NCBI GenBank assembly: GCA_031274035.1 | Contig: JAISQR010000134.1 | Coordinates: forward strand, 1-40,971 | Length of the DNA: 40,971 bases | Origin: Treponema sp. | GTDB lineage: Bacteria > Spirochaetota > Spirochaetia > Treponematales > Breznakiellaceae | Reading direction: 5' to 3' | Shown here: positions 2,599 through 19,019 of the stretch, one piece after another | Layout: the number at the start of each line of letters is the position of its first letter | Numbering within the stretch: position 1 is the first letter of the stretch | The notes under the pieces: model-generated | Told to the model about the DNA's origin: nothing | Databases searched by the model: none | Seen by the model: only the letters and a program-made list of their open reading frames with translations | Translations under genes and position numbers: made by a program

Positions 2599-3534
2599 AT
2601 GAATATTCTGTTCTTCAAGTATGTTATAGAGATTGAACGGACGCGATCTATAACCAAAGCGGCTGAAAATCTCTATATGGCTCAACCTAATCTCAGCAAG
2701 GCTATTAAGGAATTGGAAGATACCTTTGGTTTTCCTATATTTGAACGGAATTCAAAGGGAGTTATCCCGACCAGGAAAGGCATGGAATTTCTGGTATATG
2801 CCCGAAATATTCTTGAACAGGTTGAAAGAATACGACGGCTTTCGGACAACGAGGCCGGAGAGCGGCGGCGTTTTAGCGTTTCCTTTCCGCGGTGTAGTTA
2901 TATTGCGGCGGGATTTAACGCTTTTGCCCGTGAACTTGATTTTGAGAAAGGTATCAATATCAATATTCAGGAAACAAATTCCATGCAGGCAATAACAAAT
3001 ATTGTAGAAAACAAGTATAACCTGGGTATTATCCGTTATCAGACAGTCTATGAGAATTATTTTCTTGACTATTTAACCGATAAAAATATGAATTATGATC
3101 TGATATGGGAATTTGAATATCTTGCCCTTATGTCAAAAGACCATTGTCTGGCTAATGAAAGCAATCTTAATCTCAACAAGCTGCTTGAATATGTTGAAAT
3201 CGTTCACGGCGATACCATTGTACCCTACCTGAACGCGGCTGACATGAGGCAGTACGCTCCTGATTCGGCGTATAAAAAAATCTATCTCTATGAACGGTGG
3301 AATCAGTTTGAACTATTAACTACCATTCCCTCTACATATATGTGGGTATCCCCTATTCCTGGCGAACTGCTCTCGCGTTACAACCTGATACAACGAAAAT
3401 GCTTATACGCCAATAACCGGTATAAGGATATATTGGTGTATCCCAGGGGATATTCCTTTTCGGCGCTGGATAAAAAATTTATTGATAAACTATATGAGGC
3501 AAAAAATGAAGTTTCTTTTCAGGAATACTACTGA
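2599..3534 (+). CDS. LysR-family transcriptional regulator
   Basis: N-terminal HTH FKYVIEIERTRSITKAAENLYMAQPNLSKAIKELEDTFGFPIFERNSKG. Confidence 0.9.
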   Translation: MNILFFKYVIEIERTRSITKAAENLYMAQPNLSKAIKELEDTFGFPIFERNSKGVIPTRKGMEFLVYARNILEQVERIRRLSDNEAGERRRFSVSFPRCSYIAAGFNAFARELDFEKGININIQETNSMQAITNIVENKYNLGIIRYQTVYENYFLDYLTDKNMNYDLIWEFEYLALMSKDHCLANESNLNLNKLLEYVEIVHGDTIVPYLNAADMRQYAPDSAYKKIYLYERWNQFELLTTIPSTYMWVSPIPGELLSRYNLIQRKCLYANNRYKDILVYPRGYSFSALDKKFIDKLYEAKNEVSFQEYY

Positions 3535-3946: not shown

Positions 3947-6580
3947 ATGGTCAAAGAAAAGGAACTTGAAACGGTCAGGGATTTGGAAAGCCTTGAAAGA
4001 GCTCTTGCGCGGATACGGGCGGCCCAAAGAATCTATGCCGGATTTACCCAGGAGCAGGTAGATAAAATATTTTTTGCCGCGGCCAGGGCCGCCGATATGG
4101 CCCGGATTCCTCTGGCAAAAATGGCGGCGGAAGAAACCGGTATGGGCGTTGTGGAAGATAAAGTTATTAAGAACCATTATGCGGCGGAGTATATTTACAA
4201 TGCCTATAAGAATACCAAAACCTGCGGTATTATTGAAGAAGACCCCGCCTATGGTTACAGGAGAATAGCCGAACCAATTGGGCTTGCAGCCGCGGTTATT
4301 CCCACGACTAATCCCACCTCAACGGCGATCTTCAAAGCGCTCATCTGTCTTAAAACCCGTAACGGCATTATCATATCGCCCCATCCCCGTGCAAAGGGAT
4401 GTACCAATACGGCGGCCGGGATAATCCTTGATGCCGCGGCGGCAGCCGGCGCTCCGGCGGGGATCATCGGCTGGATAGACGAGCCAAGCCTGGACCTTAC
4501 CAATCTGGTGATGAAAGAAGCGGACATTATTTTGGCTACCGGCGGCCCTGGAATGGTAAAGGCTGCCTATTCCTCGGGCAAACCGGCAATCGGCGTCGGT
4601 TCGGGAAATGTACCGGCGGTAATAGACGAAAGCGCGGATATAAAACTTGCGGTCAACAGCATTATCCATTCAAAGACTTTTGACAATGGTATGATCTGTG
4701 CTTCTGAACAGTCGGTGATCGTTTTGGATACAATATACGAAGATGTAAAAAAGGAATTTCTCTACCGCGGTTCTTATTTCCTCAATCCTGAAGAAATCGA
4801 AAAGGTACGGCATACCATAATTGTAAACGGCGCGCTTAACGCAAAAATAGTCGGGCAACCGGCCCGTACTATTGCTTCTCTTGCGGGTATTTCCGTACCG
4901 GAGACGGTAAAATTACTTATCGGAGAGGTAGAAAGCACGGAACTTTCAGAGGAATTCGCACACGAAAAACTGTCCCCCGTTCTGGCTATGTACCATGCAA
5001 AAAATTTTGAAGATGCAATGAATAAAGCCGAACCTCTTATTATCGAAGGCGGTTACGGACATACGGCTTCGGTATATCTTAACGCAACAACCGAACGGAA
5101 AAAACTTAATGCCTTTGCGGCGCGGATGAAAACCTGCCGTATTGTTGTAAATACTCCCTCATCCCACGGCGGTATAGGGGATCTCTACAATTTCAAACTA
5201 GCCCCGTCTCTTACCCTGGGCTGCGGTTCCTGGGGAGGAAATTCAGTTTCAGAAAATGTTGGGGTAAAACATCTTATCAATATTAAAACTGTCGTAGAGA
5301 GGAGAGAAAACATGCTGTGGTTCCGCGCCCCTGAAAAAATATACTTAAAGAAAGGGTGTCTGCCTGTTGCCCTTGATGAACTTAAAACGGAAATGGGCAA
5401 ACAGCGGGCTTTTATTGTTACCGATACTTTTCTCTATCAGAATGGTTACACAAAAGCGGTAACGGATAAACTGGATGAATTGGGTATTGTCCACGAGACC
5501 TTCTTTAATGTCGAACCCGATCCGACCCTTGCCTGCGCCAAGGAAGGGGCCGCATTGATAAGCGCCTTTAAACCCGATGTGATCATCGCATTAGGCGGCG
5601 GATCAGCTATGGACGCGGGGAAGATTATGTGGGTTTTATACGAACACCCCAAGGCGGATTTTATAGACATGGCCATGCGTTTTGCCGATATACGCAAACG
5701 GGTTTATACTTTTCCAAAAATGGGGGAAAAGGCCTATTTTATCGCAGTCCCTACTTCCGCCGGAACAGGAAGCGAAGTAACGCCCTTTGCGGTTATTACC
5801 GATGAAAAAAACGGCATGAAATATCCTCTGGCGGATTATGAACTTCTTCCTGATATGGCCATAGTAGACGCCGATTTAATGATGAACGCGCCAAAGGCTC
5901 TTACCAGCGCCTCCGGGATCGATGCTATGACTCACGCACTGGAAGCCTATGCCTCGGTAATGGCTACCGACTACACCGACGCTCTTGCATTGCAGGCGCT
6001 TAAAATAATTTTTGCCTATCTTCCCACGGCTTACAACAACGGGCCGCGAGATCCTGTATCCCGTGAAAAGATGGCTAACGCGGCAAGCATTGCGGGTATG
6101 GCATTTGCAAACGCCTTTCTTGGCGTTTGTCATTCTATGGCTCACAAACTCGGTGCGTTTCATCATTTGCCCCACGGTATTGCCAACGCACTTATGATCG
6201 ATGAGGTAATACGGTTTAATGCCGAGGAATCTCCGGCAAAAATGGGAACGTTCCCCCAGTATGATCATCCCCATACCCTGGCAAGATACGGGGAAATTGC
6301 GGATTATCTGGGAATTCACGGAAAAGACAATATCGAAAAACTTGAAAAACTTATTGATTCGATTGACTGTTTGAAAGAACAAGTGGGCATTAAAAAGACC
6401 ATTCAGGACTATGGGGTTGAAGAAAGTTATTTCCTTGAAAAACTTGACGAAATGAGCGAACAGGCTTTTGACGATCAGTGTACCGGTTCAAACCCCCGGT
6501 ATCCATTGATCAAGGAAATAAAACAAATGTATCTTAACGCATTTTATGGAAAAAGGGGAACATACAATGATGGAGTATAA
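3947..6580 (+). CDS. adhE: Bifunctional aldehyde-alcohol dehydrogenase
   Basis: ALDH domain with GMICASEQSV catalytic Cys; Fe-ADH domain with GGGSAMDAGKIMWVLYEHP, SGIDAMTHALEAY, CHSMAHKLGAFHHLPHGIANA. Internal start at 3947 preceded by AAGGGAAGAAG. Confidence 0.95.
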   Translation: MVKEKELETVRDLESLERALARIRAAQRIYAGFTQEQVDKIFFAAARAADMARIPLAKMAAEETGMGVVEDKVIKNHYAAEYIYNAYKNTKTCGIIEEDPAYGYRRIAEPIGLAAAVIPTTNPTSTAIFKALICLKTRNGIIISPHPRAKGCTNTAAGIILDAAAAAGAPAGIIGWIDEPSLDLTNLVMKEADIILATGGPGMVKAAYSSGKPAIGVGSGNVPAVIDESADIKLAVNSIIHSKTFDNGMICASEQSVIVLDTIYEDVKKEFLYRGSYFLNPEEIEKVRHTIIVNGALNAKIVGQPARTIASLAGISVPETVKLLIGEVESTELSEEFAHEKLSPVLAMYHAKNFEDAMNKAEPLIIEGGYGHTASVYLNATTERKKLNAFAARMKTCRIVVNTPSSHGGIGDLYNFKLAPSLTLGCGSWGGNSVSENVGVKHLINIKTVVERRENMLWFRAPEKIYLKKGCLPVALDELKTEMGKQRAFIVTDTFLYQNGYTKAVTDKLDELGIVHETFFNVEPDPTLACAKEGAALISAFKPDVIIALGGGSAMDAGKIMWVLYEHPKADFIDMAMRFADIRKRVYTFPKMGEKAYFIAVPTSAGTGSEVTPFAVITDEKNGMKYPLADYELLPDMAIVDADLMMNAPKALTSASGIDAMTHALEAYASVMATDYTDALALQALKIIFAYLPTAYNNGPRDPVSREKMANAASIAGMAFANAFLGVCHSMAHKLGAFHHLPHGIANALMIDEVIRFNAEESPAKMGTFPQYDHPHTLARYGEIADYLGIHGKDNIEKLEKLIDSIDCLKEQVGIKKTIQDYGVEESYFLEKLDEMSEQAFDDQCTGSNPRYPLIKEIKQMYLNAFYGKRGTYNDGV

Positions 6581-7325
6581 ATTGGATAAAATTTTAGCTG
6601 AACGGCCGTTAAAAACCATTTATCTTGACGGGAATAAAGTTATCAAACTTATGGGGAAGGAATATCCCGCTTCCGATGTACTTTCCGAAGCATTAAACCT
6701 GGCCGCGGTAGGCGAGACAAAACTCAAAGTACCAAAATTAATTGAGGTAACTCAGATAGACGGAAAATGGGCTATCGTATGGGAATATGTAAAAGGAATT
6801 ACCCTGGCAGAACTTATGAAAAATGATCCCGGACATTTCGATCAATATTTTGAGCAGTTTGTAGATATTCAGCTTGAAATGCACCAGTACACCGCTACCC
6901 GCCTGCCTTTGCTGTTGGATAAAATGCACAGGAAACTATTTGCATCGGGTCTTGATGCTACGGTCCGCTATGAATTAAGAACCCGTCTTGACAGCCTGCC
7001 CAGGCATACAAAACTCTGTCATGGGGATTATAACCCCAGTAATATTATTATAACCGCGGAAAAAGAAGCATATATTATTGACTGGTCCCACGCCACCCAA
7101 GGCAATGCCAGCGCCGATGCCGCGCAAACATACATACTTTTCTATATTTCAAAAAAGACAGATATCGCGGAGAAATATCTATCCTCTTTCTGTAAAAAGA
7201 GTGATACTGCAAGACAGTATGTAGATAAATGGATATCTATTGTTGCAGCTTCGCAAATAGCAAAGGTAAAACCTGAAGAAAAAGATATTTTACTTCAGTG
7301 GGCAAATGTTGTGGAATACGAATAA
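6567..7325 (+). CDS. APH/choline-kinase-fold phosphotransferase
   Basis: LCHGDYNPSNIII (Brenner motif) and YIIDWSHA; beta3-type Lys VIKLM. Start overlaps the 3' end of adhE; RBS AAAAGGGG. Confidence 0.8.
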   Translation: MMEYKLDKILAERPLKTIYLDGNKVIKLMGKEYPASDVLSEALNLAAVGETKLKVPKLIEVTQIDGKWAIVWEYVKGITLAELMKNDPGHFDQYFEQFVDIQLEMHQYTATRLPLLLDKMHRKLFASGLDATVRYELRTRLDSLPRHTKLCHGDYNPSNIIITAEKEAYIIDWSHATQGNASADAAQTYILFYISKKTDIAEKYLSSFCKKSDTARQYVDKWISIVAASQIAKVKPEEKDILLQWANVVEYE

Positions 7326-7335
7326 GTGTTTTATT

Positions 7336-9051
7336 ATGAACGAATACTTAACCCTTAAAACAGCAAATTGCCGTAATTGCTATAAATGTATACGCCATTG
7401 CCCGGTTAAATCCATACGTTTCGACGATAACCATGCCCATATTATTGCTGAAGAGTGTATACTCTGCGGCAATTGTTTTGTCATTTGTCCGCAGAATGCC
7501 AAAGAGGTCCGCAATGATGTTGAAAAGGCGCAAGCATTATTAAAGGAAGGGGCGGAAGTATATGTAAGTTTGGCGCCTTCCTTTACCGCAAATTATACCG
7601 ATGAAAAAAGCGGACGTTCCCTTACTATCGGCGCGCTGGAGAAGGCTTTAAAGAAATTAGGGTTTACCGGTATTGAGGAGACAGCCGTCGGCGCCACCAT
7701 TGTAAAACAACAGTATGACGCTTTGGTAAACGCGGGAAAACTGGATGTAATTATCAGTTCCTGCTGCCACACGGTAAATCAACTTGTTCAGAAATATTAC
7801 CCCGATGTATTGCCTTTTCTTGCCCGCGTCCTCTCTCCTATGCAGGCTCATTGCATGGACCTAAAACGCCGTCATCCCGGAGCAAAAACCGTATTCATAG
7901 GCCCCTGTATTTCCAAGAAAGCGGAGGCGGAAACCTATACAGGATTTGCCGATTGTGTGCTTACCTTTGAAGAACTTTCCCAATGGCTTTTAACTGAAAA
8001 TATTCCGTTAACATTGCTGGAAGAAGAAAAGAACAATAAAAGCCTTGCCCGTTTTTTTCCCGTTTCAGGCGGAATACTGCGTACCATGAAGAAAGCAAAT
8101 AAACATTATACCTATTTGACTATCGATGGTATCGAAAACTGTATCAGGGCTGTTGAGGATGTGGCAAAGGGAAAATTGTGTAAATGCTTCATTGAAATGT
8201 CGGCCTGCACCGGCAGTTGTACCGGCGGTCCTGTTATGGATCGGGGGGAGAAGCAGCGCAGCGAAAAGAATTATTATCCTGTGCGTGATTATATCGCCGT
8301 TTCATCCTATGCAGGAGAAGATGACTTTGCCGTAAATGACTATCCGGGTGAAGCCCTGAATAAAACCATAAACTCCCTTTTGACACGCAAGGTACACCTT
8401 GGAGAAAATTCAATTTCCGAGGTATTACGGAAAATAGGAAAAACCAGTATTGAGCATGAGTTAAATTGCGGTACTTGCGGATACAATACCTGCCGCGAAA
8501 AGGCCCAGGCGGTACTGGAAGGTAAGGCGCATGTTTTTATGTGTCTTCCGTATCTGCTGGAAAAAGCCGAATCTTTTTCGGATGATATTATTAAAAATAC
8601 TCCCAATGGGATCATTGTCCTGAACGAGAATCTTGAAGTTCACCAAATAAACTCTGCGGCTTGTAAACTTCTTAATATAAGTCAATCGGCTATACTTGGC
8701 GATCAGGTGATTCGTATTCTTGATCCAGACCCCTTTATCAAGGCGGTTCAGGAAGAAAAAAATACCTATAACAAACGTGTCTATCTTGCAGATTATGAGA
8801 AATATGTTGATGAAACAGTCATCTATGACAGGAGCTACCACATTGTTATTTGTATTATGAGGGATGTTACCGAGGAGACGCGCCAAAGAGAAATGAAAGA
8901 AACCTTTAACCGAAAAACCATAGAAATTACCGACAAGGTGATAGAAAAACAGATGAGGGCGGTTCAGGAAATTGCTTCTCTTCTGGGGGAAACAACGGCG
9001 GAAACAAAGATTGCCCTTACCAAATTGAAGGAAAGCCTAACCGATGAATAA
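7336..9051 (+). CDS. PAS-containing sensory-type [FeFe]-hydrogenase (HydS/group C-like)
   Basis: Two N-terminal 4Fe-4S motifs; H-cluster motifs SSCCHTVNQLVQKYYP, GPCISKKAE, EMSACTGSCTGG; additional CGTCGYNTC cluster; PAS (IIKNTPNGIIVLNENLEVHQIN); C-terminal coiled segment. Confidence 0.85.
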   Translation: MNEYLTLKTANCRNCYKCIRHCPVKSIRFDDNHAHIIAEECILCGNCFVICPQNAKEVRNDVEKAQALLKEGAEVYVSLAPSFTANYTDEKSGRSLTIGALEKALKKLGFTGIEETAVGATIVKQQYDALVNAGKLDVIISSCCHTVNQLVQKYYPDVLPFLARVLSPMQAHCMDLKRRHPGAKTVFIGPCISKKAEAETYTGFADCVLTFEELSQWLLTENIPLTLLEEEKNNKSLARFFPVSGGILRTMKKANKHYTYLTIDGIENCIRAVEDVAKGKLCKCFIEMSACTGSCTGGPVMDRGEKQRSEKNYYPVRDYIAVSSYAGEDDFAVNDYPGEALNKTINSLLTRKVHLGENSISEVLRKIGKTSIEHELNCGTCGYNTCREKAQAVLEGKAHVFMCLPYLLEKAESFSDDIIKNTPNGIIVLNENLEVHQINSAACKLLNISQSAILGDQVIRILDPDPFIKAVQEEKNTYNKRVYLADYEKYVDETVIYDRSYHIVICIMRDVTEETRQREMKETFNRKTIEITDKVIEKQMRAVQEIASLLGETTAETKIALTKLKESLTDE

Positions 9052-10216
9052 TTTTTGTACCGACGCGGGTTTTGTAAGTCTTAACAAAAAAGGAGAACAG
9101 ATCTGCGGGGATCATGTTGAAATAATTCCCGGTGATAATCTTACCATAGCGGTACTTGCTGACGGTCTTGGCAGCGGTGTTAAAGCGAATATACTATCCA
9201 CATTAACAGCGAAGATCATTTCTACCATGATGGCCAATTCCCTGACCATAGAGGACTGTGTCTCCGCTATCGCCGCTACCTTGCCTATCTGCAAGGTAAG
9301 GCAGATTGCCTATTCCACCTTTACCATAATCTGTATAAAAAACAATTTAGATGCGGAAATTATTCAATATGATAATCCGCAGGTAATTCTTTTGAGGGAC
9401 GGGAAGAATTATCAATATTCCAATACATCGGAAATTATGGAAAATAAGATCATCTACAAGAGCCGGCTTAAACTGCACGAAGATGACACCTTTATCGCAA
9501 TTAGCGATGGGGTAGTTCATGCCGGAATCGGCAATGTTCTCAATTTCGGCTGGCAAAGGGATAATATCGTTCGATTTATGGAAGATGTATACGAAAAAGA
9601 TCTAACCGCAAAAACCCTTTGTTCGATTCTGCTTAATAAATGCTATTCCCTCTACGGAGGAGAACCCGGCGATGATACGACTGTCTGCACTTTAAAGATA
9701 CGTCAGCGGCAGCCGGTTAATCTGCTCATCGGTCCTCCCTCCGATCCTCAAGATGTAAAAAAAATGATGGTTCTCTTTTTTTCAAAAGAAGGAAAACATA
9801 TAGTTTGCGGCGGCACTACTTCGGATTTAGCGGCCCGGCATCTTGGTAAAACTTTGATAACCGGCTTCCCCCGTTATGTTGACGCTCAAATACCTCCTAC
9901 CGCCGCAATAGAAGGAGTGGATCTGGTTACAGAAGGCGTTATCACCATAAACAGAGTTTTGGAATATGCCAGGGATTATGTCCTTAATAATGAAAACTAT
10001 GCTCACTGGAATTACGGAAAGGACGGGGCGTCCCAAATAGCCCGCCTCCTTTTTAAAGAGGCCACGGATATTAATTTTTATGTAGGAAAGGCAATCAATC
10101 CTGCCCATCAAAACCCGGACCTTCCCATCGGTTTCAGTATCAAGATGCGTTTGATTGATGAATTGGCGTCTTGTCTTAAACAAATGGGAAAGCAAATTAA
10201 AGTAAGTTATTTTTAG
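9044..10216 (+). CDS. SpoIIE/PP2C-type serine phosphatase domain protein with extra C-terminal domain
   Basis: DHVEIIPGDNLTIAVLADGLGSGVKAN; DTFIAISDGVVHAG; GEPGDDTTVCTLKI metal-binding Asp motifs. Start overlaps the stop of the sensory hydrogenase gene. Confidence 0.85.
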   Translation: MNNFCTDAGFVSLNKKGEQICGDHVEIIPGDNLTIAVLADGLGSGVKANILSTLTAKIISTMMANSLTIEDCVSAIAATLPICKVRQIAYSTFTIICIKNNLDAEIIQYDNPQVILLRDGKNYQYSNTSEIMENKIIYKSRLKLHEDDTFIAISDGVVHAGIGNVLNFGWQRDNIVRFMEDVYEKDLTAKTLCSILLNKCYSLYGGEPGDDTTVCTLKIRQRQPVNLLIGPPSDPQDVKKMMVLFFSKEGKHIVCGGTTSDLAARHLGKTLITGFPRYVDAQIPPTAAIEGVDLVTEGVITINRVLEYARDYVLNNENYAHWNYGKDGASQIARLLFKEATDINFYVGKAINPAHQNPDLPIGFSIKMRLIDELASCLKQMGKQIKVSYF

Positions 10217-10227
10217 GAGAGTATTAT

Positions 10228-10713
10228 ATGGGTATACAATTTAGTTATGAAGCTGTTGATGGAATTGTGGAAGAATTGGGAGGGAAACCAAGTTCAATTA
10301 TTGCAATCCTCCAGAAAATTCAGGAACTTTACCGTTATCTGCCGCCTCAAGTATTTCCTCATTTAGCAAAAAAATTTGGGGTAAGCGAGGCCCGTATCTA
10401 CAGCGTGGCAACCTTTTATGAAAATTTTTCTTTGGAGCCTAAAGGAGAATATATCATAAAAATTTGCGATGGTACTGCCTGTCATGTAAGGAAATCTATC
10501 CCTATACTGAACAAACTCCGTGAAGTATTAGGGCTTTCGGAAAAAAAAATAACCACCGACGATCTAGGGTTTACCGTGGAAACCGTTTCATGTCTGGGGG
10601 CCTGCGGTCTTGCACCGGTTATGACAGTGAACGATACAGTCCATCCTGCCATGACTCCCGTGAAAGCGGAAACCCTGCTCGCGGAACTTCAGGCCGAAAG
10701 AAATACACACTAA
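10228..10713 (+). CDS. NuoE-like [2Fe-2S] hydrogenase/NADH dehydrogenase 24 kDa subunit (HydC-like)
   Basis: VATFYENFSLEPKGEYIIKICDGTACHVRKS; CLGACGLAPVM cluster motif. Confidence 0.9.
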   Translation: MGIQFSYEAVDGIVEELGGKPSSIIAILQKIQELYRYLPPQVFPHLAKKFGVSEARIYSVATFYENFSLEPKGEYIIKICDGTACHVRKSIPILNKLREVLGLSEKKITTDDLGFTVETVSCLGACGLAPVMTVNDTVHPAMTPVKAETLLAELQAERNTH

Positions 10714-10774: not shown

Positions 10775-12679
10775 ATGTTGACGGATAGAAGCTCTTTACG
10801 GAAAGTTAGAGCGGCGTATGAAACAGCGCTCAATGCGGAGAAAAAAAAGATACTTGTTTGCGCCGGGACAGGGTGCGTTTCGTCAGGATCGATGGCCATT
10901 TACGAAGAACTTATTTCATTGATGAATAAACAAAACATAGTCTGTTCTGTAGAACTCCGCCTGGAATCTGAATCGGACAATGAAACGGTAAATTTACACC
11001 CGGCTGTAAATCCTATCGGAGTAAAACGGAGCGGCTGTCACGGCTTTTGTGAAATGGGTCCGCTTATTTTGATTGAACCCGAAGGGTTTCTTTATACCAA
11101 GGTACAACTTGCGGATTGTAAAGAAATAATCGAACAAACAATATGTAAAGGGATCGCTGTAGAAAGACTCTCCTACCGTAAAAATGGGAACACGTATCCT
11201 AAAAGAAATGAAATTCCGTTTTATGGCAAGCAAACCCGCCTGGTGCTGGAACATTGCGGACAGATAGACGCAACTTCAATCCGGGAATACTTTGCCGTAG
11301 GGGGCTATCAGGCTTTTGAAAAAGCCCTCTTTGATATGAGCGCCGGCCAGATTATCGATGAAATCTCCGAATCAAACCTCCGCGGACGGGGAGGCGGAGG
11401 TTTCCCGGCAGGGCGTAAATGGTCCCAGGTTAAGCGGCAGACGGAAGGGCAAAAGTATATTGTTTGTAACGGAGACGAAGGGGATCCCGGCGCGTTCATG
11501 GACAGAAGCGTTATGGAGGGAGACCCCCACCGTATGATAGAAGGTATGCTTATCGGAGCCTTGGCCTGCGGCGTTTCCGAGGGATATATCTATGTCCGCG
11601 CCGAATATCCCCTGGCAGTAAGCCGGTTAATGACTGCTATTGAACAGGCAAAGGAATACGGTCTTATCGGAGAACGTATACTGGGGACAGCTTTCAGTTT
11701 TGATCTGCATATTAACCGCGGAGCAGGAGCCTTTGTATGCGGCGAGGGCAGCGCCCTTACCGCATCTATTGAAGGAAAACGGGGAATGCCCAGAGTTAAG
11801 CCTCCCCGTACCGTTGAACAGGGACTTTTTGAAAAACCGACGGTACTTAACAACGTAGAAACATTTGCCAATGTACCCCTCATTATAAACCGCGGTGCGG
11901 CGTGGTATAAATCTATAGGCCCCGCTAACAGCCCTGGTACAAAAGCCTTTGCCCTTACCGGTAATATTGAAAACACCGGCCTTATTGAAGTGCCTATGGG
12001 AACAACCCTACGGGAAATTATCTTTGATGTGGGCGGCGGCATGAAGGGAAACGGAGAATTTAAGGCCGTTCAGATCGGCGGTCCATCGGGGGGCTGCCTT
12101 ACCGCCGAACATCTGGATCTTCCGGTGGATTTTGATTCACTTAAAAAGGTTGGCGCCATGATAGGATCCGGCGGACTTGTGGTTATGGACGATCAAACCT
12201 GCATGGTGGAAATAGCCCGCTTCTTTATGAACTTTACCCAAAATGAGTCCTGCGGAAAATGCGTTCCCTGCCGCGAAGGTACTAAACGGATGCTCGCCAT
12301 CCTTGAACGTATCGTTGCGGGTGAAGGCAGGGAAGAGGATATAGATCTGCTCCTGGAGTTGGCGGATACTATTTCTGAAACAGCCCTGTGCGGTCTCGGA
12401 AAGACCGCCCCGTTTCCGGTTGTAAGTACCATTAGAAGTTTCCGCGGCGAATATGAAGCTCACATACATGAAAAACACTGCCCCGCGGGAAGCTGCCGGA
12501 AGTTAAAGCGCATTTATATAAAAGCGGAAAAGTGCAAGGGGTGTTCCAAATGTTCCCGCGTCTGCCCGGTAGGTGCAATCAGCGGTAAGATAAAAGAACC
12601 CTTTGCAATAGATACGGCCAAGTGTATTAAATGCGAAGCCTGCATTGAAGCATGTCCCTTTAAGGCGATAGCAGGTTAA
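10775..12679 (+). CDS. NuoF-like flavoprotein hydrogenase subunit (HydB-like) with N-terminal thioredoxin-like [2Fe-2S] and C-terminal 2x[4Fe-4S] domains
   Basis: NLRGRGGGGFPAGRKWSQ; CNGDEGDPGAFMDRSVMEGDPH; ESCGKCVPCREGTKRM; C-terminal CKGCSKCSRVCP and CIKCEACIEACP. Confidence 0.95.
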   Translation: MLTDRSSLRKVRAAYETALNAEKKKILVCAGTGCVSSGSMAIYEELISLMNKQNIVCSVELRLESESDNETVNLHPAVNPIGVKRSGCHGFCEMGPLILIEPEGFLYTKVQLADCKEIIEQTICKGIAVERLSYRKNGNTYPKRNEIPFYGKQTRLVLEHCGQIDATSIREYFAVGGYQAFEKALFDMSAGQIIDEISESNLRGRGGGGFPAGRKWSQVKRQTEGQKYIVCNGDEGDPGAFMDRSVMEGDPHRMIEGMLIGALACGVSEGYIYVRAEYPLAVSRLMTAIEQAKEYGLIGERILGTAFSFDLHINRGAGAFVCGEGSALTASIEGKRGMPRVKPPRTVEQGLFEKPTVLNNVETFANVPLIINRGAAWYKSIGPANSPGTKAFALTGNIENTGLIEVPMGTTLREIIFDVGGGMKGNGEFKAVQIGGPSGGCLTAEHLDLPVDFDSLKKVGAMIGSGGLVVMDDQTCMVEIARFFMNFTQNESCGKCVPCREGTKRMLAILERIVAGEGREEDIDLLLELADTISETALCGLGKTAPFPVVSTIRSFRGEYEAHIHEKHCPAGSCRKLKRIYIKAEKCKGCSKCSRVCPVGAISGKIKEPFAIDTAKCIKCEACIEACPFKAIAG

Positions 12680-12730: not shown

Positions 12731-12767
12731 TAGGGCGAGGTAGTTTATTTTAAGGATTTCTATAATG

Positions 12768-14516
12768 ATGAAAGAGTATATGATAATTGACGGAATTCCG
12801 ATTGAAATACAGGAAGAAAAAAACATCCTTGAACTGATCCGTAAGGCAGGGATAGATATTCCAACCTTCTGCTATCATTCGGAACTTTCAATTTACGGCG
12901 CCTGCCGGATGTGTATGGTAGAGACTGAAAAAGGCGGCCTTGAAGCCGCCTGCTCAACGCCGCCCCGGGCAGGAACGCAGATTAAAACAAATACGGATAA
13001 GCTGCGTAAGTACCGCAGGATGATTTTGGAATTGCTCCTGGCAAACCATTGCCGGGATTGCACCACCTGCGGAAATAACGGAAGCTGCAAACTTCAGGAC
13101 CTGGCGAAACGTTTCAATATTCAGAACGTCCGCTTCCCCAATACCGCTGAAAACCCGGACATTGACGATTCTTCACTCTGTATAACCCGCGATCAGAATA
13201 AGTGTATTCTCTGCGGCGATTGCGTCAGAATGTGCAACGAGGTGCAGGCTGTGGGGGCCATTGATTTTGCCCACCGGGGATCAAACATGAAGGTAAGCGC
13301 CCTGTTCGGCAGAAAGATAGCCGAATCCTCCTGTGTGGGCTGCGGCCAATGCGCGGCGGTTTGTCCTACAGGCGCTATTGTGGTAAAGAATGATACCGCT
13401 AAGGTCTGGAAGGCTCTGGACGACAAACGCATAAAGGTAAGCTGTCAAATCGCTCCGGCGGTTCGGGTTGCGGTGGGGCGGGAATTCGGCTTAATCTCAA
13501 ATAAAGGTTCGGAGGGTAATGATATAGGTCTTATTATCGCCGCGCTCAGACGTTTAGGTTTTGATGAAATATACGATACCGCCACCGGAGCTGACCTTAC
13601 GGTGCTTGAGGAAGCCAACGAATTAATCAAGCGTCTTGAAGATCGGAAAGAAGAGAATCCTTCCAGATCGAGTGCAGGGATGCCCCTCTTTACTTCATGC
13701 TGCCCTGCCTGGGTTCAATTTGTGGAGAAACAGTATCCCGAATTATTACCCAGTCTTTCAAGCGCCCGTTCTCCTATGCAGATGTTTGCATCGGTTATTA
13801 AAGAGGAAGTAAGCCTAAGTTCAAGCCGTACCCATGTGCATATAGCTATCATGCCCTGTACCGCTAAAAAGTTTGAGGCTGCCAGGGATGAATTTAAAAT
13901 TAATGGAATACCCCAGGTTGATTATGTGATTACCACCCAGGAATTAATCCGTATGATAAAAGAATCGGGGATACTCTTTTCTGAATTAAGCCCTGAATCG
14001 GTAGATATGCCCTTTGGAACCATCACCGGCGCGGGGTTGATTTTCGGGGTTACCGGCGGTGTAACCGAAGCGGTAATACGGAGGATCTCCGGGGATAAAT
14101 CCTCAACGGCGCTTATGGCCTTGAGTTTTCAGGGGTTTCGGGGCATGGATGGGATCAAAACCGCAAAGATTATGGCGGGTGAACGGGAACTCAGCATTGC
14201 CGTTGTAAGCGGCCTTAAAAACGCGGCCGGTATTATTGAAGGCATTAAAAGCGGACAGAGCGAATACCGCTTTGATTTTGTTGAAGTAATGGCCTGTCCC
14301 GGAGGCTGTGTCAGCGGTGCGGGTCAACCCCAGGCGCTGCCGACGGTTAAAGAAGAACGGGGAAAAGGTCTCTATTCGGCAGATAAACTCTGCGCTATCA
14401 AACGGTCTGAAGAGAATCCCCTTATGATGAATCTATACAACGGCCTGCTCAAAGGGCGGGTCCACGAATTATTGCATGTTAAATACGGCCGCGATAAGGA
14501 GAAAATCCATGCTTGA
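12768..14516 (+). CDS. hydA: [FeFe]-hydrogenase catalytic subunit (NAD-linked/bifurcating HydA-like)
   Basis: N-terminal [2Fe-2S] ferredoxin-type domain; multiple 4Fe-4S motifs; H-cluster motifs TSCCPAWVQFVEKQYPELLP, MPCTAKKFEA, EVMACPGGCVSGAGQPQ. Alternative ATG at 12765. Confidence 0.95.
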   Translation: MKEYMIIDGIPIEIQEEKNILELIRKAGIDIPTFCYHSELSIYGACRMCMVETEKGGLEAACSTPPRAGTQIKTNTDKLRKYRRMILELLLANHCRDCTTCGNNGSCKLQDLAKRFNIQNVRFPNTAENPDIDDSSLCITRDQNKCILCGDCVRMCNEVQAVGAIDFAHRGSNMKVSALFGRKIAESSCVGCGQCAAVCPTGAIVVKNDTAKVWKALDDKRIKVSCQIAPAVRVAVGREFGLISNKGSEGNDIGLIIAALRRLGFDEIYDTATGADLTVLEEANELIKRLEDRKEENPSRSSAGMPLFTSCCPAWVQFVEKQYPELLPSLSSARSPMQMFASVIKEEVSLSSSRTHVHIAIMPCTAKKFEAARDEFKINGIPQVDYVITTQELIRMIKESGILFSELSPESVDMPFGTITGAGLIFGVTGGVTEAVIRRISGDKSSTALMALSFQGFRGMDGIKTAKIMAGERELSIAVVSGLKNAAGIIEGIKSGQSEYRFDFVEVMACPGGCVSGAGQPQALPTVKEERGKGLYSADKLCAIKRSEENPLMMNLYNGLLKGRVHELLHVKYGRDKEKIHA

Positions 14517-14754
14517 GTTATGTGTATGTATCGGCAGTTCATGCCATATTAAAGGATCCTATAATGTCATTCAAACTTTCCAGCAGCTTATCGAGGAAGA
14601 AGCCCTCCATGATAAGATTACCTTCAAATCCAGCTTTTGCCAAAAGCAATGTCAGCATCCGGGTGTGGCGGTTTCAGTGGACGGAATCATCCATCAGGTA
14701 AGTACGGAAAAGGCAAAGGAATTTTTTATTACCCAAGTGATAACAAAGGTATAG
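14509..14754 (+). CDS. Small thioredoxin-like [2Fe-2S] protein
   Basis: MLELCVCIGSSCHIKGSYNV...CQKQCQHPGVAVSVDG. Start overlaps the hydA stop. Confidence 0.8.
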   Translation: MLELCVCIGSSCHIKGSYNVIQTFQQLIEEEALHDKITFKSSFCQKQCQHPGVAVSVDGIIHQVSTEKAKEFFITQVITKV

Positions 14755-14900: not shown

Positions 14901-15581
14901 ATGAAAAACTTTAAAATATCCGCGGCTCCTTCGGTGCGAAGGCTGCCTTCATATATGCACATAATCCGTAATTTGCAGCGCGAAGGGAAAGAGTATATTT
15001 CAGGGTCCGTTATAGCCCATGAATTAAGCCTGGATTCTATTCAGGTACGCAAGGACCTCTCTATAACCGGCATAATAGGCAGGCCGAAGAAGGGCTATCC
15101 TGTAAATACTCTCATAGATGCCATAGAACATTTCCTGGGCTGGGATTCTCTTCAGGACGCCGTATTGATAGGTGTAGGGAATCTGGGGTCTGCGCTGCTT
15201 GGGTATTCGGAATTTCAATTTCATGGGCTTAATATCATGGCTGCTTTTGATACCAATCCAAAAAAGATCGGCTCTACCATTCATGGACTTAGAATAATGA
15301 ATGCCAATACTATGGATATTCAAATTCGTAATTTTGGAGTCAGAATAGCAATTTTGACAGTGCCGTCCGATAATGCCCAGGAAGCCGCGGATATATTGGT
15401 TAATGCGGGGATCGAAGGTATCTGGAATTTTACCAATGTAAAACTTAAAGTCCCGGATACTGTCGTAGTGCAAAGAGAGGACCTTTCGTCAGGTTATGCT
15501 ATGCTTTCGGTCAAACTAAATGTAAAGCGGCGGGACAGAGAAGCAAAGCCGGAGCAGCCCTGCGTTGCAAGCATGACTTGA
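14901..15581 (+). CDS. rex: Redox-sensing transcriptional repressor Rex
   Basis: HTH (LSLDSIQVRKDLSITGIIGRPKKGYPV) plus Rossmann domain (VLIGVGNLGSALLGYSEF, AAFDTNPKKIG). Confidence 0.95.
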   Translation: MKNFKISAAPSVRRLPSYMHIIRNLQREGKEYISGSVIAHELSLDSIQVRKDLSITGIIGRPKKGYPVNTLIDAIEHFLGWDSLQDAVLIGVGNLGSALLGYSEFQFHGLNIMAAFDTNPKKIGSTIHGLRIMNANTMDIQIRNFGVRIAILTVPSDNAQEAADILVNAGIEGIWNFTNVKLKVPDTVVVQREDLSSGYAMLSVKLNVKRRDREAKPEQPCVASMT

Positions 15582-17987: not shown

Positions 17988-19019
17988 CTATTCCCAGCCG
18001 CCCGATGATCCGCTTACCGAACTGTCCAGCGTAACCCCTGTACCGGCGGTGGTATCGCGCTTACCGCCGTTTATAACGTATACCGCATGACCGTAACTGT
18101 TGCCGTTGGCAGCGGTGTTTTTTAACAAGGAAGATGCATTTGACCCGTAAATAGTACCGCCCTGCTTGGTAAATGTACCACTGGTTACTGCCACCCCGCC
18201 GCCGGAGGCGGAGGAATTGCCGCTTATCGTACCGCCGCTCATGGTAAAGGCGCCGAGGTATACATACACTCCGCCGCCGAAGGAGGAGGAGGCAGTATTG
18301 CCGCTGATCGTACCGCCGCTCATGGTAAATGTGCCGCCGGATGATACATATACCCCGCCGCCCTTCCCTACGGAGGCGGAGGATGCAGTATTGCCGCTGA
18401 TGGTTCCGCCGCTCATGGTAAACGTGCCGCCGGATACAAACACCCCGCCGCCTCCTCCGCCGCCGGAGGATGCAGTATTGCCGCTGATCGTACCGCCGCT
18501 CATGGTAAACGTGCCGCCGGATACAAACACCCCGCCGCCGTAGGAGGAGGAGGTATTGCCGCTCACCTTTGAGCCGGCATTCATCACCAGCATGCCGCCG
18601 TTGTCCACCCAAACCAGCGCATCCGCATTGCCGTTCCTCCCCTGCAAGGTAAGGTTATTGTCCAGCGTCAGCGTTACCCCGCTGTCCACGGTTAAAGAGG
18701 GGCCCGGTTGAACTAAATAGACCGTCCGTTCAGTTGAGCCGCCAGCAAGGGTTATATTCACATTCTTACCGTTGTAGGAAAGCATCTTTGGAGCGATGCT
18801 GGCGTTGGCGCTTAACGTAATGGTATAATTGCCGCCGTCCGCCGCGTTGTTGCTGATCCATATTAATGAGTCGGCAAGCGATAAATTACTGGGCATGGTG
18901 CTGTCCCCCGATCCATCCGATCCATCAGAGTGAAACAGGTCCTTGCACCCCGCGAACAGCAGCAGCCCAAAACAGAAAAGCGCCGCTATACGCGCCGAAT
19001 TTTGTTTTGTATGTTTCAT
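17988..19019 (-). CDS. Repeat-containing lipoprotein (POMP/beta-helix-like)
   Basis: Lipobox LLLFAGCKD; repeated GGTFTMSGGTISGNTASS units separated by Gly/Ser linkers. Confidence 0.8.
   Translation of the reverse strand: MKHTKQNSARIAALFCFGLLLFAGCKDLFHSDGSDGSGDSTMPSNLSLADSLIWISNNAADGGNYTITLSANASIAPKMLSYNGKNVNITLAGGSTERTVYLVQPGPSLTVDSGVTLTLDNNLTLQGRNGNADALVWVDNGGMLVMNAGSKVSGNTSSSYGGGVFVSGGTFTMSGGTISGNTASSGGGGGGGVFVSGGTFTMSGGTISGNTASSASVGKGGGVYVSSGGTFTMSGGTISGNTASSSFGGGVYVYLGAFTMSGGTISGNSSASGGGVAVTSGTFTKQGGTIYGSNASSLLKNTAANGNSYGHAVYVINGGKRDTTAGTGVTLDSSVSGSSGGWE
18160..18560 (-). repeat. Tandem intragenic repeats encoding FTMSGGTISGNTASS
   Basis: Recurring + strand string GCAGTATTGCCGCTGATCGTACCGCCGCTCATGGTAAA(C/T)GTGCCGCCGGAT. 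Confidence 0.85.

Follow-up and report, generated by a model that had tools for sequence, protein, structure and literature searches.

An APH-fold kinase gene beside one AdhE clade and a HydS-phosphatase pair in a fermentation operon of Treponema

Operons that combine adhE with a sensory hydrogenase

The control of ethanol versus acetate formation by H2 pressure is a long-standing question in rumen, termite-gut and biofuel microbiology, and a role in it is already suspected for HydS, a PAS-domain sensory [FeFe]-hydrogenase, and the phosphatase encoded with it. Published work regards this pair as an H2-responsive regulator (PMC5707799, PMC11837493, PMC6776011). In Thermoanaerobacterium, whose hfsABCD genes encode a HydS-type protein (HfsB) and a serine-phosphatase homologue (HfsC) (PMC11837493), hfs mutants are altered in ethanol yield and adhE expression; deletion of hfsB raises the adhE transcript two- to threefold and increases the NADH-linked alcohol dehydrogenase (NADH-ADH) activity but not the aldehyde dehydrogenase (ALDH) activity, and the authors propose that regulation has a post-transcriptional component (PMC5707799). 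The eight-gene adhE-HydA2-HydS cluster of Ruminococcus albus is H2-responsive: growing the organism together with an H2 consumer lowers the adhE-HydS cluster 111-fold (PMC6776011). According to PMC5707799, Zheng et al. (2014) proposed that HydS passes its signal to a Ser/Thr kinase adjacent to it. In Clostridium thermocellum, the genes Cthe_0422-0431 (rex, adhE, an aminoglycoside phosphotransferase, an fdx-like gene, HydS, SpoIIE, NuoE, NuoF, HydA and a second fdx-like gene) shift expression together after furfural, and the phosphotransferase label is the annotation of Cthe_0424 (PMC3848806). Here we describe a locus of this kind in Treponema sp., a gut-type spirochaete (positions 1 to 40,971 of contig JAISQR010000134.1, called the window below), and with it the conserved, unstudied kinase gene, Cthe_0424 in C. 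thermocellum, that stands beside one clade of the bifunctional acetaldehyde/alcohol dehydrogenase AdhE. The kinase and the phosphatase encoded at this locus belong to separate modules within one fermentation operon and are not a matched pair.

Profile searches give the order of the cluster in the window as LysR / adhE-APH-hydS-spoIIE-nuoE-nuoF-hydA-fdx-rex. From adhE to hydA, the gene set and order are those of C. thermocellum, and the same order is found in two Acetivibrio loci (L116 and L132). Because the Acetivibrio loci and the C. thermocellum annotation share this arrangement, the locus belongs to an operon type that is already known (adhE-APH-hydS-spoIIE-nuoE-nuoF-hydA). It differs from the C. 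thermocellum operon at both ends, where it has a LysR gene (5′) and rex (3′), and in lacking the small fdx gene between the kinase gene and hydS. An fdx homologue occupies that place in most relatives (for example, L073:7460-7696), which is probably the position of HfsA. The R. albus cluster resembles the window in encoding AdhE, HydS and a Ser/Thr phosphatase, but its hydrogenase is the ferredoxin-only HydA2 (PMC6776011), whereas the window carries NADH-linked HydABC-type genes. Thermoanaerobacterium shares the HydS-type protein and its phosphatase with the window; the gene beside its adhE, however, is the divergently transcribed Tsac_0415 of unknown function, and no APH-fold kinase is described there.

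The kinase, HydS and phosphatase genes encode three intact proteins in a single orientation, the first of them directly following adhE, which ends at 6580:

3947..6580, + strand: adhE, bifunctional acetaldehyde/alcohol dehydrogenase (NCBIfam NF010378, 1363.7 bits against a cut-off of 951)
6567..7325, + strand: APH-fold kinase of an AdhE-linked family (Pfam APH, 5.4e-15; catalytic residues intact)
7336..9051, + strand: hydS, PAS-domain sensory [FeFe]-hydrogenase, HydS/HfsB homologue (Fe_hyd_lg_C, FeS and PAS domains)
9044..10216, + strand: SpoIIE-type PPM phosphatase, HfsC/Cthe_0427 homologue (Pfam SpoIIE, 8.6e-14)

The open reading frame of HydS can be read from 7306. Since its relatives align from residue 10-13, the ATG at 7336 is the more likely start, and the apparent overlap with the kinase frame is therefore probably not real. 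The frames of HydS and the phosphatase do overlap, by 8 nucleotides (9044-9051). This overlap, and the position of the kinase and phosphatase genes on either side of a PAS hydrogenase, which the Pfam matches bear out, had been recognized in an earlier reading of the sequence alone (the first-pass annotation), which went on to propose that the two enzymes write and erase a phosphate on a common target under H2/redox control.

Linkage of the kinase gene to one AdhE clade

A scan of genome contigs with an alignment of the kinase identified no fewer than 596 relatives. The 80 best of them, at 54-74% identity, come from Spirochaetota and Clostridia. An adhE gene lies on the same strand no more than 400 bp upstream in 76 of these 80; of the remaining four, two are at contig ends, one has its adhE at a distance of 813 bp, and in L115 no adhE was detected in the 616 bp available upstream. 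HydS is found downstream of the kinase gene in about half of the loci (38 of 80 by an automatic count, in which at least one match, that of L103 at 29%, more probably represents a different hydrogenase). The 41 adhE-kinase loci without HydS have no recurring third partner beyond an occasional upstream LysR or Rex gene, and the other clusters in that search proved to be antisense or out-of-frame open reading frames inside adhE.

This linkage follows the phylogeny of AdhE. In 196 genomes of Clostridia, the kinase gene stands directly downstream of 41 of the 68 AdhE genes that belong to the window's clade (at least 63% identity) and beside none of the 35 that belong to a divergent clade, and an AdhE of the window's clade is present in 44 of the 46 genomes that have the kinase (Fisher p 3e-25, ignoring relatedness). 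In 395 genomes of Spirochaetota, the kinase accompanies 14 of 16 AdhEs at ≥72% identity and 0 of about 60 at 57-64% identity. On a tree of AdhE, the linkage label requires 12 changes versus 37.5 in shuffles, in a sample that is biased by mixing loci found via the kinase with loci found via AdhE, and the tree is compatible with a single-clade origin of the linkage and scattered losses. These distributions are best read as those of an accessory that goes with a single clade of AdhE in Spirochaetota and Clostridia, with AdhE as the presumed partner of the kinase gene. The first-pass annotation, which rightly set the kinase beside HydS, underplayed its position directly after adhE. A search for AdhE residues specific to the kinase-linked enzymes returned differences that follow phylogeny and no defensible phosphosite. 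A stand-alone homologue of the kinase, 43% identical, is encoded at L241:6806-7546 with neither AdhE nor HydS nearby; the AdhE gene of the same genome (G445) has no kinase gene alongside.

The kinase is a protein of 252 amino acids that matches Pfam APH (PF01636) with 56.2 bits (cut-off 23.2), as do 42 of 42 relatives. The HGDxxxxN and IDW motifs and the beta3-type Lys noted in the first-pass annotation are borne out across the family: 119-120 of 120 orthologues keep K27 (the beta3 Lys), E41, H152-G153-D154, N159 and D172-W173. Structure prediction, which that annotation had suggested, gave an APH fold (AlphaFold2 model, mean predicted local distance difference test score (pLDDT) 94.3), for which the best matches in the Protein Data Bank (PDB) are APH(3′)-IIb and APH(3′)-Ia (template modelling (TM) score about 0.65, E about 1e-9); APH(4) and the choline kinase LicA are also among the closest structures. 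The protein thus shares its fold and its HGDxxxxN and IDW motifs with the APH(3′)/choline kinase superfamily (PF01636), but differs from its known members in being linked to AdhE and in reaching no curated NCBIfam subfamily (46.9 bits against 228.2 for TIGR02172 and 27.9 against 205 for APH_3p). Its score for the Hanks-type Ser/Thr kinases (PF00069) is 16.4 bits, under the cut-off of 31.7.

The fold, the motif layout and the low protein-kinase score all speak for a small-molecule kinase, which would act on a metabolite or a damaged cofactor of acetaldehyde/ethanol flux while the phosphatase acts on an unrelated phosphoprotein, and so does the retention of the kinase in two genomes without an AdhE match. 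We take this to be a serious possibility, though one that we lean away from: no known small-molecule kinase family is reached at its curated cut-off, and a generic metabolite would hardly explain why the link is so tight with one AdhE clade and does not extend to AdhE activity at large.

A different function is suggested by the RIO1 model of Pfam, which matches the window kinase above its cut-off (31.4 versus 22 bits) as well as 42 of 42 relatives, and by the Bud32 models, which match all 42 weakly. A Bud32/RIO-like ATPase or assembly factor, whose ATP hydrolysis or binding would aid the folding, metal loading or spirosome assembly of AdhE, would also suit a gene that nearly always adjoins that of a filament-forming enzyme. 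This explanation is very unlikely in our view: the RIO and Bud32 matches in the window kinase span the catalytic stretch alone (37-63 residues; residues 142-178 for RIO1), the Bud32 score (TIGR03724, 33.9 bits) is far under the cut-off of 125, the fold as a whole is nearer APH, and AdhE functions without the kinase in many species.

Pairing of HydS with its phosphatase apart from the kinase

HydS keeps a partner of its own. In the 30 best HydS loci of Spirochaetota, examined with 1.5 kb flanks, the phosphatase gene adjoins HydS in 28 and the kinase gene in six. One of the two loci without an adjoining phosphatase gene is at a contig end; the other, L045, which comes from the same genome as L073, has an inserted hydrogenase gene with the phosphatase gene beyond it. 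The conserved pairing is consistent with the published view of HydS and its phosphatase as an H2-responsive regulator. Six Spirochaetota genomes (G007, G368, G097, G382, G358 and G076) have adhE-kinase and no HydS match at E 1e-30, and two of these, G358 and G382, are single contigs. The kinase and the phosphatase thus distribute independently, contrary to what a dedicated writer and eraser would require and in the way that the first-pass annotation had itself listed among the outcomes refuting its proposal. A second way of joining the H2-sensor module to adhE is seen in L268 and L270, where HydS-phosphatase lies directly upstream of a divergent AdhE (about 48% identity) and there is no kinase gene.

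The same division is evident in the divergence of the proteins. Partial rank correlations of pairwise distances, with partial Mantel permutations, were calculated for 30 operons that contain all four genes. The APH-AdhE and HydS-SpoIIE distances are correlated (partial r 0.69 and 0.83, respectively, permutation p about 0.0005 for each), and the APH-HydS and APH-SpoIIE distances are not (partial r 0.07, p 0.25, and partial r 0.03, p 0.41). APH and SpoIIE are still uncorrelated (−0.14) in a subset of 14 operons with divergent HydS. These correlations show inheritance as two cassettes, AdhE-APH and HydS-SpoIIE, and do not imply physical contact.

These results bear directly on the dedicated pair of the first-pass annotation, taken here to mean that HydS controls both enzymes at one shared site on AdhE or a hydrogenase subunit. 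The intact kinase-fold and PPM enzymes around an H2-sensor hydrogenase in an AdhE operon stand as described there. The two enzymes share an operon in the window and at about half of the kinase loci, three kinase copies directly precede fdx-HydS-phosphatase with no adhE at the locus, and hfsB mutants are altered in NADH-ADH and not in ALDH activity (PMC5707799), all of which would suit such a pair. We nevertheless regard it as quite unlikely, given the independent distribution of kinase and phosphatase and the lack of any excess co-divergence between them; moreover, the hfsB effect comes from Thermoanaerobacterium, where an unrelated gene lies by adhE and no such kinase is named (PMC5707799). 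The three copies just mentioned (L238, L239 and L240, all from Clostridia, in the order kinase-fdx-HydS-phosphatase), together with a genome (G428) that has one kinase copy by adhE and a second by HydS, indicate that the kinase can be a functional part of the combined system as well as of the AdhE unit.

In the window, HydS combines Fe_hyd_lg_C (2.2e-46), the additional FeS motif PF04060 (3.2e-09) and PAS (8.1e-06) in one protein. The phosphatase, 390 amino acids long, matches Pfam SpoIIE (PF07228) over residues 33-219 (52.4 bits versus 25). Its DG, SDG and GDD motifs, already pointed out in the first-pass annotation, carry the metal-ligand aspartates D40, D155 and D211, which are invariant, as is D23, in 25 of 25 relatives. 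Its fold matches the SpoIIE phosphatase domain and Sphaerobacter PPM structures (5mqh, E 1.9e-13; 3pu9, E 1.7e-12; TM by target 0.69-0.74). The PPM fold and metal ligands are thus common to this protein and the SpoIIE/RsbU phosphatases, from which it differs in having no STAS partner in the operon, in having its sensor as a separate protein (HydS) and not as a fused domain, and in a conserved extra C-terminal domain without family assignment. This domain (about residues 225-390, or ~165 residues; window 9713-10216) contains many invariant residues and is found in all 25 aligned HydS-linked relatives; it has no Pfam family and no convincing PDB sequence match, and the matches listed in the fold search are all of phosphatase type.

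The ten cluster proteins scanned include no STAS domain, in agreement with the first-pass annotation, and no RsbW/SpoIIAB-type kinase. STAS and HATPase_c_2 genes are present in the window's genome outside the window, and a classical phosphatase target acting in trans is therefore possible. Four STAS-domain matches, on contigs C252, C511, C195 and C273 (L306-L309), three of them in short open frames of 119-192 residues, are candidate substrates of this kind.

A two-module model of the operon

Combining these findings, we propose, with about even confidence, that two modules with separate inheritance meet at this locus within an ethanol/H2 fermentation operon, the kinase tuning AdhE and HydS driving the phosphatase. 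The first module, adhE and the APH-fold kinase gene, would provide AdhE with an accessory whose most likely substrate is AdhE itself or a compound of the pathway immediately around it. In the second module, HydS and the PPM phosphatase, H2 at the H-cluster of HydS would change the PAS region and, through it, the phosphatase, which would dephosphorylate a regulator of AdhE and hydrogenase expression, possibly a STAS-type protein whose gene lies elsewhere. The operon in the window would then consist of an adhE-kinase cassette to which an H2-sensing phosphatase module has become attached. The analysis establishes what the genes are, that the catalytic residues are intact, how the modules are composed and that they are distributed independently; H2 sensing, the direction of signalling and all substrates are what we infer.

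AdhE is a plausible substrate of the kinase, and action on AdhE or its pathway is favoured as most likely because the kinase gene is linked to a single clade of AdhE and stays so where HydS is absent. A small-molecule substrate is nearly as likely, given the APH fold and the lack of a detected AdhE in two genomes. Several observations weigh against the model. Small molecules are the usual substrates of APH-fold enzymes, and the solved structures nearest in fold belong to antibiotic and choline kinases. Many members of this AdhE clade come without the kinase, which is therefore not needed for AdhE activity, and no Ser or Thr particular to the kinase-linked AdhEs is separable from phylogeny. Two of the Clostridia genomes with kinase-fdx-HydS-phosphatase and no adhE at the locus, G595 and G544, both of which may be incomplete, have no AdhE match at all, which argues against AdhE as the sole substrate. 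With respect to the modules, APH tracks HydS too (0.57) in the 14 operons with divergent HydS, and co-inheritance of neighbours can by itself correlate distances without physical interaction.

It is also conceivable, although we think it unlikely, that a dedicated AdhE kinase balances the two activities of AdhE, acting on the enzyme or its filament, and that HydS-phosphatase, where present, reverses this action, giving a post-translational H2 switch on ethanol. Reversing the action of the kinase, if the phosphatase ever does so, is neither its ancestral nor an obligatory role, and the split into two modules cautions against presuming that a neighbouring phosphatase undoes the work of the kinase. 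In the open-access literature (most subscription journals lay outside the scope of the search), the linkage of the kinase gene to adhE seems to have drawn no comment so far, and nothing usable was found on AdhE phosphorylation or the function of Cthe_0424. C. thermocellum has genetic tools, which make a direct test of the kinase possible.

The cluster is completed by a regulator gene upstream of adhE and by hydrogenase and redox genes downstream of the phosphatase gene:

2599..3534, + strand: LysR-family regulator, upstream of adhE (Pfam HTH_1, 6.8e-17)
10228..10713, + strand: NuoE-like [2Fe-2S] subunit of the multimeric hydrogenase (Pfam 2Fe-2S_thioredx, 5.3e-46)
10775..12679, + strand: NuoF-like flavin subunit of the multimeric hydrogenase (Pfam Complex1_51K, 1.3e-45)
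12765..14516, + strand: HydA, catalytic subunit of the NADH-linked [FeFe]-hydrogenase (Pfam Fe_hyd_lg_C, 3.8e-83)
14476..14754, + strand: fdx, small thioredoxin-like ferredoxin (Pfam 2Fe-2S_thioredx, 0.0017)
14901..15581, + strand: Rex redox repressor (NF003994, 278.9 bits against a cut-off of 130)

HydA scores 651.9 bits against NF040763, under the exception cut-off of 765. A LysR gene upstream of adhE is also present at many loci of the relatives. A scan for Rex sites returned nine matches, each with 3 mismatches and none just upstream of adhE, and was uninformative; promoter and terminator scans gave results near or modestly over the shuffled background, and no use was made of them. On the minus strand, an open reading frame at 17988-19019 of the window contains many GGTFTMSGGTISGNTASS-type repeats; it has no relation to the operon and apparently encodes a surface-type protein of repetitive sequence.

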